A stretch of 64,000 nt of DNA from Polynucleobacter sp. AP-Ainpum-60-G11 (GTDB lineage: Bacteria; Pseudomonadota; Gammaproteobacteria; Burkholderiales; Burkholderiaceae), in the NCBI RefSeq assembly GCF_018688375.1, contig NZ_CP061318.1:186001-250000 (forward strand), in the 5' to 3' direction. Positions within the stretch are counted from its first letter, which is position 1; each line of letters starts with the position of its first letter. The notes below the pieces were generated by a model. It saw only the letters and a list, made by a program, of their open reading frames with translations, was not told the DNA's origin and searched no databases. Of the stretch, positions 11,209 to 15,795 are shown piece by piece. A program made the translations under genes and the position numbers.

Positions 11209-12390
11209 ATGTTGAATTGGGAAGAAGAAGTTGCCCCCGCATTAGCAAAAGCCGGTCTAGCGCCACAACCAGTGGTAGCCGAACCGCAGCGCCCGCAACC
11301 CGATCAAGTTGCGATTGCTGCGCCTCAAGATGTTGCACCAGTGCAAGCAGCCCCATTGTCTGGTGGTGCAGCTTTGCGTGTTAATGCTGCCGATAAGCGT
11401 GTGATTAACGCCAAGACTGACGTTAATCAATTAGTTCCATTTAAATATAAGTGGGCTTGGGAGAAGTATTTGGCCGGTTGCGCAAATCACTGGATGCCGC
11501 AAGAGATCAATATGAATCGTGATATCGCGCTTTGGAAAGATCCTAACGGCTTAACTGAAGATGAGCGTCGCATCATCAAGCGTAATCTTGGTTTCTTCAC
11601 GACAGCAGATTCATTGGCGGCAAATAACATTGTTTTGGGTACTTATCGCCACATTACTGCCCCAGAATGCCGTCAATATCTATTGCGCCAGGCATTTGAG
11701 GAGGCAATTCACACCCACGCTTATCAATATATTGTGGAATCACTAGGCTTAGATCAGAGTGAAATCTTTAATGCGTACAACGAGATTGAGTCTATTCGCG
11801 CTAAAGATGAGTTCTTAATTCCTTACATCGACGTATTAACCAACCCTAATTTCAAAACTGGAACATTAGAAACTGACCAAACTTTGCTGCGATCACTCAT
11901 TGTTTTTGCTTGCGTGATGGAAGGTTTGTTCTTTTATGTTGGTTTTACGCAAATACTTGCAATGGGTCGTCAAAACAAAATGACGGGTGCTGCTGAGCAG
12001 TATCAATACATCCTTCGCGATGAGTCTATGCACTGTAATTTTGGCATCGATTTAATTAATCAAATCAAGCTGGAGAACCCGCAGTTATGGACTTCTGCGT
12101 TCAAAGACGAGATCAAATCCATCTTCGAAAAAGCAGTGGAATTAGAGTACCGTTATGCAGAGGATACGATGCCTCGCGGAGTGCTCGGATTGAACGCGCC
12201 GATGTTCAAAGGTTACCTAAGATACATCTGTAATCGCAGATGTTTGCAAATAGGACTTGACGCGATGTTCCCAAATGAAGAGAATCCATTCCCATGGATG
12301 TCAGAAATGATTGATCTGAAAAAAGAGAGAAACTTTTTTGAGACACGCGTTATTGAGTATCAAACTGGCGGTGCGCTAAGTTGGGAATAG
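11209..12390 (+). CDS. nrdB: Class Ia ribonucleotide reductase, beta subunit
   Basis: Di-iron protein that stores the tyrosyl radical for NrdA. Metal ligands visible by pattern are D134 ([10 protein letters not shown]), E165 and H168 ([10 protein letters not shown]), E238 (CVMEGLFF), E272 and H275 (DESMH); the radical tyrosine is Y172. A Pro/Gln/Ala-rich N-terminal extension of about 55 residues precedes the ferritin-like fold. The C-terminal tail would dock into NrdA. AGGAGAG lies a few bases before the ATG. The reading frame ends 17 bp past the GGALSWE tail region with no further overlapping gene. Confidence 0.97.
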
Positions 12391-12724
12391 TAGTCAGGTA
12401 GAAAGCGCATAGCCGGCTAAATAGGAGATTAGACGGTTGGATAGTTTTAAAAGTCAGCAAAACCAGACTCAAGTCCGAAAACCCTTCCTCAAGGGTGTCT
12501 GGTCTACTCTCTCTATTTTTTCCAGCAAATTTAAGAAGCCGTTGCCCTTTGGGGCCACGGCTTTTTTTCCAGGATTCATTAGCGTGCAGCACTTAGCATC
12601 AAGCCGCGCGCCGATGAATGGCTCGCTCGTCGGCTCCAATCGGTTGCAAAACCAGGCGGAAATGAATTGGTCGGGTCTTCTTAATCGGTAGTTTGTACTA
12701 ATCCTCACGTGAAGGAGCATTACT
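12391..12724 (+). other. 334-bp gap: structured RNA candidate, terminator and leader
   Basis: No credible protein gene is seen. The first part (12462-12503) folds as a nested stem: ACCAGAC pairs with GTCTGGT, enclosing ACCCTT/AAGGGT. It is followed by a strong terminator (12536-12568). The last 150 bp is the leader of the histone-like gene: it holds a GCCGA...TCGGC stem and ends in AAGGAG seven to eight bases before the ATG. The structured piece may be an nrdAB 3'-UTR or a small RNA; this is not established. Confidence 0.4.
12536..12568 (+). terminator. Rho-independent terminator downstream of nrdB
   Basis: AAGCCGTTGCCC (12536-12547) pairs with GGGCCACGGCTT (12552-12563), with one mismatch and a 4-nt loop, followed by a run of seven T residues. 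Strong canonical form; it would end the nrdAB transcript or a small RNA just upstream. Confidence 0.88.
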
Positions 12725-13027
12725 ATGGCAATCGCCAAGAAAAAAGTTGCTGCAAAGAAACCTGCTGCTAAAAAAGCTGCTGCTAAAAAGCCAGCTGCTA
12801 AAAAAGTAGCTAAAAAGAAGCCTGCTGCTAAGAAAGTTGCTGCTAAAAAGCCAGCTGCTAAAAAAGTAGCTAAGAAGCGTCCTGCTGCTAAAAAAGCTGC
12901 TGCTAAAAAGCCAGCTGCTAAAAAAGTAGCTAAGAAGAAGCCTGCTGCTAAGAAAGTAGCTCGTAAAGCTGCTGCTAAAAAGCCTGCTGCTAAGAAAGTA
13001 GCTCGTAAAGTAGCAAAAAAAAAGTAA
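12725..13027 (+). CDS. Histone H1-like Lys/Ala/Pro-rich DNA-binding protein, frame ends early
   Basis: A 100-aa protein built almost only of K, A, P, V and R, in repeats like KKPAAKKVAKK, resembling the eukaryotic H1 C-terminal tail and the histone-like proteins of Burkholderiales (for example Bordetella BpH1). It should bind DNA without sequence preference and help compact the nucleoid. A strong AAGGAG precedes the ATG. The frame stops at TAA right after an A9 run (13015-13023), but the continuation of the protein is intact in the -1 frame to 13149. With the shift the product would be 141 aa. The short product may still be functional, since the repeats alone carry the charge. Confidence 0.85.
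   Translation: MAIAKKKVAAKKPAAKKAAAKKPAAKKVAKKKPAAKKVAAKKPAAKKVAKKRPAAKKAAAKKPAAKKVAKKKPAAKKVARKAAAKKPAAKKVARKVAKKK
12781..12960 (+). repeat. Three tandem copies of a 60-bp repeat
   Basis: Units 12781-12840, 12841-12900 and 12901-12960 align without gaps; the first 33 bases are identical in all three. By direct count units 1 and 3 differ at 2 positions, and units 1/2 and 2/3 at 6 each. Each encodes 20 residues of the histone-like protein. Part of a further unit (its last 20 bases) lies just before. Confidence 0.93.
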
Positions 13028-13149
13028 GTAAGCCTGCGGCGAAGAAAGCGGGCAAGGCTGTAAAAAAGCCCGCGGCTAAAAAAGCTGCTGCTTCAACTAC
13101 GTTGAATCCAGCTGCTGCTTGGCCCTTCCCAACTGGCACACGTCCATAA
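13024..13149 (+). other. C-terminal tail of the histone-like protein in the -1 frame
   Basis: Read from the base after a -1 slip on A AAA AAG (13018-13024), this stretch encodes 41 residues: more KPAAKK repeats, then STTLNPAAAWPFPTGTRP and a TAA at 13147-13149. Such an AWPFPTG ending is, as I recall, the usual C terminus of this family in Burkholderiales. The region between the two frames contains no stop in the tail frame. It needs a programmed shift, transcript slippage, or one extra A in the genome to be joined to the body. Confidence 0.8.
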
Positions 13150-13175
13150 GCTCTGCTTGTAGGCGGGTGAAGTTC

Positions 13176-13205
13176 AAAGGGATCTCTCACGAGATCCCTT
13201 TTTTA
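13176..13205 (+). terminator. Terminator of the histone-like gene
   Basis: AAAGGGATCTC (13176-13186) and GAGATCCCTTT (13191-13201) form a perfect 11-bp stem with a TCAC loop and a T-run after it. It lies 27 nt after the -1-frame stop at 13149, so the transcript is long enough to include the tail. Confidence 0.92.
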
Positions 13206-14247: not shown

Positions 14248-15795
14248 CTATTTTTCAGGGTAAAAAACTCTGACACGATAGCCTGCAGCGTTTTGCGGGA
14301 GAGAAATCGGGAATTCAGCGGAAATAATTTCGCCAGAGGGTGCGCCTTGACGTAAAAAATTTGGGTGCGACTCTTGCCAAAGTATTGGCAGCCACTCTTG
14401 CGGAGAAAATTGAATCGTTTTGATCGGCAATTCCTCTGCGTCAGTGAGAGAAATTTCCAAATTCGGAAATAAAACAGGTAGCGCAAGACGATTTTGTATT
14501 TCCACTTGCAACACAGATTGATTTGAAGGGTTTTTAAGGCCCTCTCGCGCGTTTTCAGGCAAAAGAGTGACTGAAGTTATTTTCCAAGCAGCAAAATCGC
14601 TCAGAGAGCGATCTACGCACCCTAGTGCACGACACAGTTGCGCATCAAATTTCATTAAAAGAGAGAATGCACTTGTTGCAAACGCAGAAGAGCTGCCATC
14701 AACACGCGTTGCTAATCTTGGGAGCAGGGAATTTCTAGAGAGGTGCTCGCCAACAATCAGGAGTAATAGGAAAGCAAGGCTGAGAAGAATTAATTTAAGA
14801 CTTTTTTTTTGAGCCGGCACTACAGTGTCTTTGCGATTACTAAGCAAACTCGCTGTATCAAGCTGCTTAGCTAGCGTGCCACGCAAACAGACCCAGCCCT
14901 CACTTTCTTTCCAAACGGAGAGACTTAACCATTGGCTATAGGTGGCAATAACTTCTTCTGCTTGGCGCGCAAGCACGCCCGAGAGCACAATTTTTCCACC
15001 GGGGCGCATCTTGTTTACCAGGGCAGGCGCTAAAACTTGTAGTGGGTTAGCCAAAATATTGGCCATCACGATGTCGTATTTGGTTTCTGCGGCGAGTTCT
15101 GGCGCATTTTCATTGGGCAGAACAAAACGAATGATTGTCTTGTTGATTTCTGCATTACTGCGTGCTGCAACCATGGCTTGCGGATCAATATCAGTGCCCA
15201 CAACGGGTTTGCAACCCAGTTTCGCGGCGGCAATAGCCAGAATTCCGGATCCACAACCGTAATCGAGCAAACTTTGATTCGCTAGCTGCGTATTTTGTTC
15301 AAGCCAAAGCAAACAAAGATGTGTAGTAGGGTGGCTGCCAGTACCAAAGGCGAGGCCCGGATCTACTGCTAAGCAAATTGCATTAGGGTCGGTGGGCGCT
15401 TCATGCCAAGAGGGTACTACCCAAATCCGCTCACCAATTTGAATTGGGGCAAATTGACTTTGCGTTAAGCGAACCCAGTCTTGTTCCTCAACAATCTTTT
15501 CTTGCGGAGCTGGAAGATGAAATCCAGCTTCTTGAAGCGATGCAAGTAACTCTGGAATGAAATTCACTGCATCAGAATCATCAATTTCTGGATTAAATAG
15601 GGCAGTTACAGAAGATCGGTCCCAGGCTTGAACCTCTGGTGAGAGCCCTGGTTCGCCATAAAGTGGGTTTTCATCATAGCCACCCGCAGCATCGTCTTCA
15701 ACAGTGACTGAGAGTGCACCCACTTCCAGCAATGCATCACCTAAAGGCTCGGCAATTTCTGCTGGTACCGTGAAAACGAGTTCACGATAGGACAT
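14248..15795 (-). CDS. prmA: Ribosomal protein L11 methyltransferase (PrmA) fused to a membrane-anchored DUF3426 domain
   Basis: Residues 1-310 are a full PrmA, which trimethylates L11: FGTGSHPTT (150-158) and the SAM-binding DYGCGSGIL (178-186), then MANILANPL. After a 20-residue linker there is a transmembrane helix (about 332-350) and a C-terminal region (about 375-515) that looks like DUF3426. In other Burkholderiales DUF3426 proteins are a separate gene after prmA, with an N-terminal zinc ribbon followed by a helix. Here the zinc ribbon is missing and the helix is joined in frame. The total of 515 aa compares with about 295 for PrmA alone. accC lies 27 nt upstream. Confidence 0.86.
   Translation of the reverse strand: MSYRELVFTVPAEIAEPLGDALLEVGALSVTVEDDAAGGYDENPLYGEPGLSPEVQAWDRSSVTALFNPEIDDSDAVNFIPELLASLQEAGFHLPAPQEKIVEEQDWVRLTQSQFAPIQIGERIWVVPSWHEAPTDPNAICLAVDPGLAFGTGSHPTTHLCLLWLEQNTQLANQSLLDYGCGSGILAIAAAKLGCKPVVGTDIDPQAMVAARSNAEINKTIIRFVLPNENAPELAAETKYDIVMANILANPLQVLAPALVNKMRPGGKIVLSGVLARQAEEVIATYSQWLSLSVWKESEGWVCLRGTLAKQLDTASLLSNRKDTVVPAQKKSLKLILLSLAFLLLLIVGEHLSRNSLLPRLATRVDGSSSAFATSAFSLLMKFDAQLCRALGCVDRSLSDFAAWKITSVTLLPENAREGLKNPSNQSVLQVEIQNRLALPVLFPNLEISLTDAEELPIKTIQFSPQEWLPILWQESHPNFLRQGAPSGEIISAEFPISLPQNAAGYRVRVFYPEK

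Follow-up and report, generated by a model that had tools for sequence, protein, structure and literature searches.

The window, a stretch of 64,000 nucleotides from the single-contig, 1.9 Mb genome of Polynucleobacter sp. AP-Ainpum-60-G11 (NZ_CP061318.1, positions 186,001 to 250,000), contains a short gene for a lysine-rich protein resembling histone H1, located downstream of an open reading frame (11209-12390) that we take to be nrdB, coding for the small subunit of ribonucleotide reductase (Table 1). The zero frame of the H1-like gene closes with the codons GCA AAA AAA AAG TAA, and the conserved end of the protein follows in the -1 frame, where 41 codons encode the sequence VSKPAAKKAGKAVKKPAAKKAAASTTLNPAAAWPFPTGTRP. 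The initial annotation had described a stop codon placed right behind A9-G, an in-frame heptamer A AAA AAG at a slippery A run, a tail without stop in the -1 frame and a terminator near 13176; all of these features are found in the window sequence and its translation, and their coordinates hold throughout. Strings of the type A9G are by themselves not rare, since the window contains two where chance alone would predict 0.91, and it is the conservation of the arrangement across the genus which exceeds chance. A search of Rfam with E-values up to 1 identified no known RNA element at the site, the four sub-threshold matches being all confined to 12443-12639. Readthrough of the stop codon was considered and rejected, as the zero frame beyond TAA would add VSLRRRKRARL before the next stop, which is unlike the tail.

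Table 1. Features of the H1-like locus, with positions counted from the first nucleotide of the window.
Feature	Position	Strand	Properties
Zero-frame ORF, H1-like protein	12725..13027	+	100 aa; ends VAKKK, then TAA; match to Pfam PF07382 (HC2)
A9 run	13015..13023	+	followed by G at 13024; read from the sequence
Slippery heptamer A AAA AAG, zero frame	13018..13024	+	abuts TAA in 141/141 two-frame genomes
Zero-frame stop TAA, abutting the heptamer	13025..13027	+	window sequence and 141/141 two-frame genomes
C-terminal tail, -1 frame	13024..13149	+	41 codons and stop (13147-13149); matches C-terminal part of NF038053
Conserved C-terminal motif LNPAAAWPFPTGTRP	13102..13146	+	common to in-frame H1-like proteins of other Burkholderiales
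Predicted hairpin, 13032-13037 / 13048-13053	13032..13053	+	7 nt past the heptamer; candidate stimulator
Alternative stem of the initial annotation, 13048-13053 / 13068-13073	13048..13073	+	RNAalifold consensus over 60-75 nt (114 relatives, identical sequences counted once)
Intrinsic-terminator-like hairpin with T run	13176..13201	+	found in the window sequence

The relationship of both parts of the gene to known histone-like proteins is reflected in profile comparisons. The zero-frame ORF matches the Pfam family PF07382 (HC2) with 50.3 bits at a cut-off of 40, and a natural relative with the tail in frame (G034) scores 36.7 bits. In the NCBIfam model NF038053, which covers 195 positions, the zero-frame ORF aligns with positions 34-137 and the tail with positions 151-195; the respective scores of the two pieces (37.6 and 27.8 bits) and of G034 (46.4 bits) are all under the cut-off of 80, and the window protein, as judged from these alignments, is a homologue of NF038053 not filed as a member. 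It shares repeats of lysine, alanine and proline with the H1-like proteins of Burkholderiales (NF038053) and with Chlamydia Hc2 (PF07382), and the C-terminal motif of the former is the same as in the tail of the window. The core of this motif, AAWPFPTG, is also present in loci of Ralstonia, Burkholderia, Paraburkholderia, Collimonas, Pandoraea and others. However, unlike in the window gene, the tail of these Burkholderiales loci resides in one frame: among the best 80 loci, this is the case in all 48 that do not contain A6GTAA (48/48, with frames of 74-293 codons), two of which look like in-frame members of Polynucleobacter. In a search for the family, 236 of 398 genomes were matched, and among the matches listed outside the genus long open frames prevail, with short exceptions of 17, 30, 80 and 99 codons, two of these four located at contig ends. 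The best 120 of 305 proteins matching the in-frame relative are mainly other lysine-rich proteins with matches to Pfam PF07382 and SWIB, and were set aside.

The tail evolves as a protein in the -1 frame. In 69 disjoint nearest pairs selected from 139 tails, pN/pS amounts to 0.22 in this frame compared to 1.26 and 1.13 in the remaining frames, for which only the 66 equally long pairs were evaluated and stop codons were disregarded, and it decreases to 0.03 in the C-terminal motif, where 5 nonsynonymous are opposed to 73 synonymous differences. Such constraint implies that the tail is made and matters and excludes a decayed remnant, albeit not an unregulated rescue. Since none of the open -1 frames contains a methionine codon (0 of 139), initiation at ATG is excluded and synthesis of the whole tail requires a change of frame, and independent initiation of the whole tail was rejected on these grounds. 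A GTG or TTG codon within the first 25 positions, present in 57 of the 139 tails, is a possible start site there, though one that would yield only part of it.

The DNA surrounding the site (12690-13200) is matched in 184 of 186 genomes of the genus, and a profile of the tail matches 172 of the 186 (E 0.01), with 14 genomes containing no tail match. The comparison of the A run in relatives, which had been proposed as a check in the initial annotation, has revealed the interruption, the stop and the -1 tail in 141 of the 172 classified genomes, each with the sequence A AAA AAG TAA; the outcome envisaged as evidence against its interpretation, relatives that share the stop but lack a conserved tail, is the opposite of what was found, the tail being conserved. 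In 26 of the 172 genomes the tail is in frame, and half of these (13/26) contain A10 where the clade of the window has A9, whereas in two the tail is placed in the +1 frame owing to a run of A8 (G018 and G051). The remaining three are odd cases, one with another site (G057), one short and in frame (G119) and one with a broken frame on a contig of uncertain quality (G054). Since several lineages carry the tail only in frame, the short form is not essential.

A start codon was located in 149 genomes, comprising 128 two-frame genomes, 19 with the tail in frame and the two with the A8-dependent +1 tail. The 128 have the tail in the -1 frame although the distance from the stop to the end of the tail differs, and their zero frame is continuous from the start to the TAA. 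The other 13 of the 141, with G148 among them, are mostly truncated at contig ends and were judged by their local sequence, an exception being G033, whose zero frame of 117 aa begins at another start. The heptamer together with the adjoining TAA is present in 141 of 141 two-frame genomes. In contrast, the length of the run is less strict, with A9 in 130, A8 in nine, where it results from a GCT codon, and single cases of A10 and A6. The sole A10 (G029) is accompanied by a GAA codon and does not bring the tail into frame, and the genome with only A6 (G033) has nevertheless retained the full heptamer, the stop and the -1 tail, both variants with shorter runs thus defining the heptamer as the constant part of the site. 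One of the 141 genomes (G002) contains an extra indel in its tail; this genome and G148 were left out of the tail statistics, which are based on 139 sequences.

The number and order of the KPAAKK repeats differ greatly between species next to a nearly constant 3' end, and the zero-frame ORFs of the 128 two-frame genomes range from 49 to 122 aa. Except for the A8 run, G018 (P. hirudinilacicola) and G051 have intact tails, in an arrangement that is not accounted for by ribosomes slipping back one base at the heptamer and needs another shift. In G057, the sequence GCA AAA AAG TAG precedes a tail in the -1 frame, an in-frame A10 is found just upstream, and the tail resembles that of the in-frame group of G001. 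This genome possibly represents an independent second origin or an error, and we did not count it as a second origin because it is a single genome in about 90 contigs with the A10 located just upstream.

The probable origin of the two-frame state is reflected in the in-frame relatives. A run of A10 followed by GTAGT occupies the corresponding place in 8 of 20 genomes of one in-frame set and in 5 of 6 of the other, so that the loss of one A from an in-frame A10 offers the simplest explanation for how the two-frame state probably arose. In a tree of nrdB encompassing 94 genomes and 4 outgroups, which was rooted on Burkholderia since the outgroups do not form one clade, two-frame genomes are divided between a main clade and a second, deep-branching group that is weakly supported (71-90). 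The tree includes 19 in-frame genomes, of which 15 fall into two clades of their own and four are nested, three in the main clade (G031, G034 and G182) and one in the second group (G053); G034 has a run of A7 and is in frame, and G182 (P. sphagniphilus) contains one extra base before the run. A single clade of two-frame genomes is rejected (p-AU 0.0015), a value to be read in light of a group that was named after seeing the tree, of outgroups that are not one clade and of a single gene that may recombine. One gain followed by losses and two gains are both compatible with the tree. From the presence of a main clade and a second group, both with nested in-frame genomes, the two-frame state would seem to be ancient and stable, yet open to reversal.

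The genome of the window contains 38 tRNA genes with a single tRNA-Lys, whose anticodon is UUU, and no counterpart with CUU. The high shiftiness of A AAA AAG has been ascribed to tRNA-Lys-UUU and should be lowered by a tRNA with the anticodon CUU, although insertion sequences bearing these motifs are still found in many species that possess both tRNAs (PMC4066793). As described in the same work, A_AAA_AAG ranks with the most efficient motifs of E. coli when stimulators are present, which typically begin 5-8 nt downstream, whereas in their absence the top three heptamers of this type reach about 0.3% in E. coli (PMC4066793). A candidate for such a stimulator is the hairpin at 13032-13053, which starts 7 nt past the heptamer and constitutes the predicted minimum-energy fold of 13025-13075 as well as of 13025-13110, with a different structure being predicted for 12985-13060. 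In 114 indel-free relatives out of the 139, its stem could form six of six pairs in 96, five in 15 and two in three cases. The initial annotation had instead pointed to the stem at 13048-13073, which is present and is favored over the nearer one by RNAalifold in alignments of 60-75 nt, but it is the hairpin with the 7-nt spacing that corresponds to the minimum-energy fold; both stems share the GCGGGC arm. The first stem begins only 10-12 nt downstream in 13 of the 139 sequences. Compared to synonymous permutations, the excess of structure is modest, with z-scores between -3.0 and +0.4 for 14 representatives and of -0.6 for the genome of the window. An upstream stimulator resembling a Shine-Dalgarno (SD) sequence was found in none of the 139 sequences; this element is optional and present in just 8 of 56 non-mobile clusters (PMC4066793).

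The codon usage of the gene was inspected in the same context. A-rich stretches away from the site seem to be kept in check, as no run there is longer than seven A's (128/128) and an A precedes lysine pairs starting with AAA in 41 of 1182 cases compared to 327 of 1251 for pairs starting with AAG. On the other hand, a further A AAA AAG is found in the gene body of 17 of 128 genomes, and the counts are drawn from repeats that are not independent. Codons that are rare in the body (GCG in 21 of 4287 alanines, CCC in 0 of 1085 prolines) are common at tail columns 7, 11, 18 and 19. They were rejected as evidence for a stem because columns 29 and 32 are likewise rich in GCG and the in-frame G001 contains CCC GCG.

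The described features have to be reconciled with several interpretations, which overlap and whose likelihoods do not add up to one. That the frame change is brought about by recoding of either kind, on the ribosome or by the polymerase, is in our judgement highly probable. As the -1-frame tail is conserved together with an invariant site, a deliberate shift offers the most likely explanation, and the programmed -1 shift by ribosomal or transcript slippage put forward in the initial annotation has gained support from the same arrangement in 141 of 172 genomes. We consider it likely that the ribosome acts as main agent of this shift, perhaps helped by transcript slippage, giving rise to isoforms of about 100 and 141 aa. 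An exclusive role of the RNA polymerase, which would insert an A to extend A9 to A10 in some transcripts that are then translated without slippage of the ribosome, is the mode of Thermus thermophilus dnaX and appears distinctly less plausible here. It would account for the prevalence of A9 in 130 of the 141 genomes and for the retention of the ninth A far above codon usage, with GCA found in 103 of 111 alanine cases at this position, whereas in the rest of the gene it encodes 523 of 4287 alanines and no A run exceeds seven (128/128). The maintenance of an A beyond the heptamer suits polymerase slippage, as it suits a double heptamer. In a large proportion of genomes, selection against slippage becomes visible at runs of nine, and in Thermus dnaX nine A's lead to 50% (PMC1088944); moreover, both mechanisms were suggested to be interchangeable at least at some locations (PMC3711429). 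However, the persistence of the arrangement with A6 in G033 and with A8 in nine genomes, the invariance of the exact heptamer and TAA in all 141 and the sole tRNA-Lys of the UUU type speak against this mode.

A tolerated frameshift, where the loss of an A would be offset by incidental slippage and where the two products would be of no regulatory use, is unlikely, if the least so among the alternatives. Such a scenario is compatible with the A10 run that half of the in-frame relatives (13 of 26) have at the equivalent position and with the recurrence of in-frame states (G031, G034, G182 and G053), and the constraint on the tail, which indicates that it is made and matters, would still permit its unregulated rescue. 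It would not readily explain why the two-frame state was retained across nearly the whole main clade with heptamer and stop unchanged. The long homopolymer in a coding region would also be suited for phase variation, where changes in run length between cells would switch the tail on and off, and rare changes are indeed found as A7 in G034, which is in frame, and as A8 in G018 and G051. Yet, in a sample consisting of one genome per species, none of the 141 two-frame genomes contains a frame-restoring A10, and we thus regard this reading as very improbable. That the A run was miscalled during sequencing or assembly is scarcely credible: homopolymers are error-prone and G018, G051 and G057 could be such cases, but the same state is found in 141 genomes, which include isolates with more than 100-fold coverage and metagenome-assembled genomes, and the tail is not decayed, thus refuting an error for the genus. 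The possibility of a miscalled or freely varying run, which the initial annotation had raised, is not supported by the comparison, with no frame-restoring A10 among the 141 and a tail under constraint at the level of the protein.

In the favored reading of a programmed -1 shift, we envisage a working two-frame gene as the most likely description of the locus, with a product that would be a lysine-rich, H1-like DNA-binding protein. Ribosomes reading straight through the site would terminate at the TAA and release a product of about 100 aa that lacks the tail. Other ribosomes, a fraction of the total, would slip back by one base at A AAA AAG with tRNA-Lys-UUU occupying both P and A sites, an event that may in many species be helped by the hairpin about 7 nt downstream. 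The shifted product of about 141 aa would carry the old conserved C-terminus ending in LNPAAAWPFPTG[TS]RP. The same long product could result from slippage of the RNA polymerase at the nine A's, which may contribute.

The dnaX gene of E. coli has a downstream hairpin and an upstream SD-like stimulator. The H1-like gene shares with it the in-frame heptamer A AAA AAG (PMC3711429), two products with a common N-terminus and the decoding by tRNA-Lys-UUU. In contrast to dnaX, where the shift leads to the short product, it would here lead to the long one, in a histone-like gene that contains no upstream SD-like stimulator and whose zero-frame stop abuts the heptamer. The run of nine A's is also found in dnaX of Thermus thermophilus, and in two-ORF dnaX genes with 7 to 10 A's the long product similarly requires recoding (PMC3711429, PMC1088944). 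Unlike in these cases, the run of the H1-like gene can comprise six or eight A's around a constant heptamer. In the window and in its relatives on the tree, the gene is chromosomal, resides 3' of nrdB and shows no sign of a mobile element. This location distinguishes it from the transposase sites of the IS3 family, which otherwise resemble it in the heptamer A AAA AAG, the -1 direction and a downstream structure at a distance of 4-10 nt (PMC4066793). A programmed frameshift in a chromosomal gene is also known for chlD, in a study that discusses Polynucleobacter duraquae and whose main text does not contain the term 'histone' (PMC9227772); chlD is a different gene from the H1-like one.

The mechanism is thus of a known kind, whereas the H1-like gene appears to be new as a recoded gene, with an earlier unnamed listing being possible. 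A search of titles and beginnings of abstracts returned no report of this site, the main text of the GeneTack paper (PMC3711429) does not mention 'histone', the unnamed clusters of its figure 3b and supplement aside, and a mention of the term in the review PMC5009743 is unrelated. Conserved recoding in ordinary chromosomal genes of bacteria is known for few families, such as chlD (PMC9227772) and prfB and dnaX, the latter two being the best-known recoded chromosomal genes outside insertion sequences (PMC3711429), and a two-frame histone-like gene across a freshwater genus would add one to them. The in-frame relatives, apparent revertants and A6 and A8 variants provide natural comparisons which could separate ribosomal from polymerase slippage, and which equally allow to address the role of the H1-like tail. 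For annotation, a gene model ending at the TAA drops the most conserved part of the protein. As a speculative proposal which we consider rather unlikely, the programmed -1 shift might set the isoform ratio of a bacterial chromatin protein, where the short form would only pack DNA and the long form would add a docking tail (LNPAAAWPFPTG[TS]RP). If true, the balance of the two forms could serve as a readout of how much charged lysyl-tRNA is available or of the state of growth, since the slippage site is made up of lysine codons and lysine accounts for nearly half of the gene.

Two other loci deserve mention. On the minus strand of the window, an ORF of 515 aa (14251-15795) combines PrmA (residues 3-306) with a DUF3426 domain (347-510). 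The linker preceding the second domain contains an A9G in frame, at 14801-14810. This may be a second slippery place or merely a fusion. Elsewhere in the genome, a second lysine-rich protein of 96 aa, of the KKAPAKK type, is encoded at a locus on the minus strand (G000:C1:836108-836234), next to an ORF that we presume to be a polyphosphate kinase 2. This neighborhood recalls AlgP of Pseudomonas, an H1-like protein that spaces polyphosphate granules (PMC9239181).
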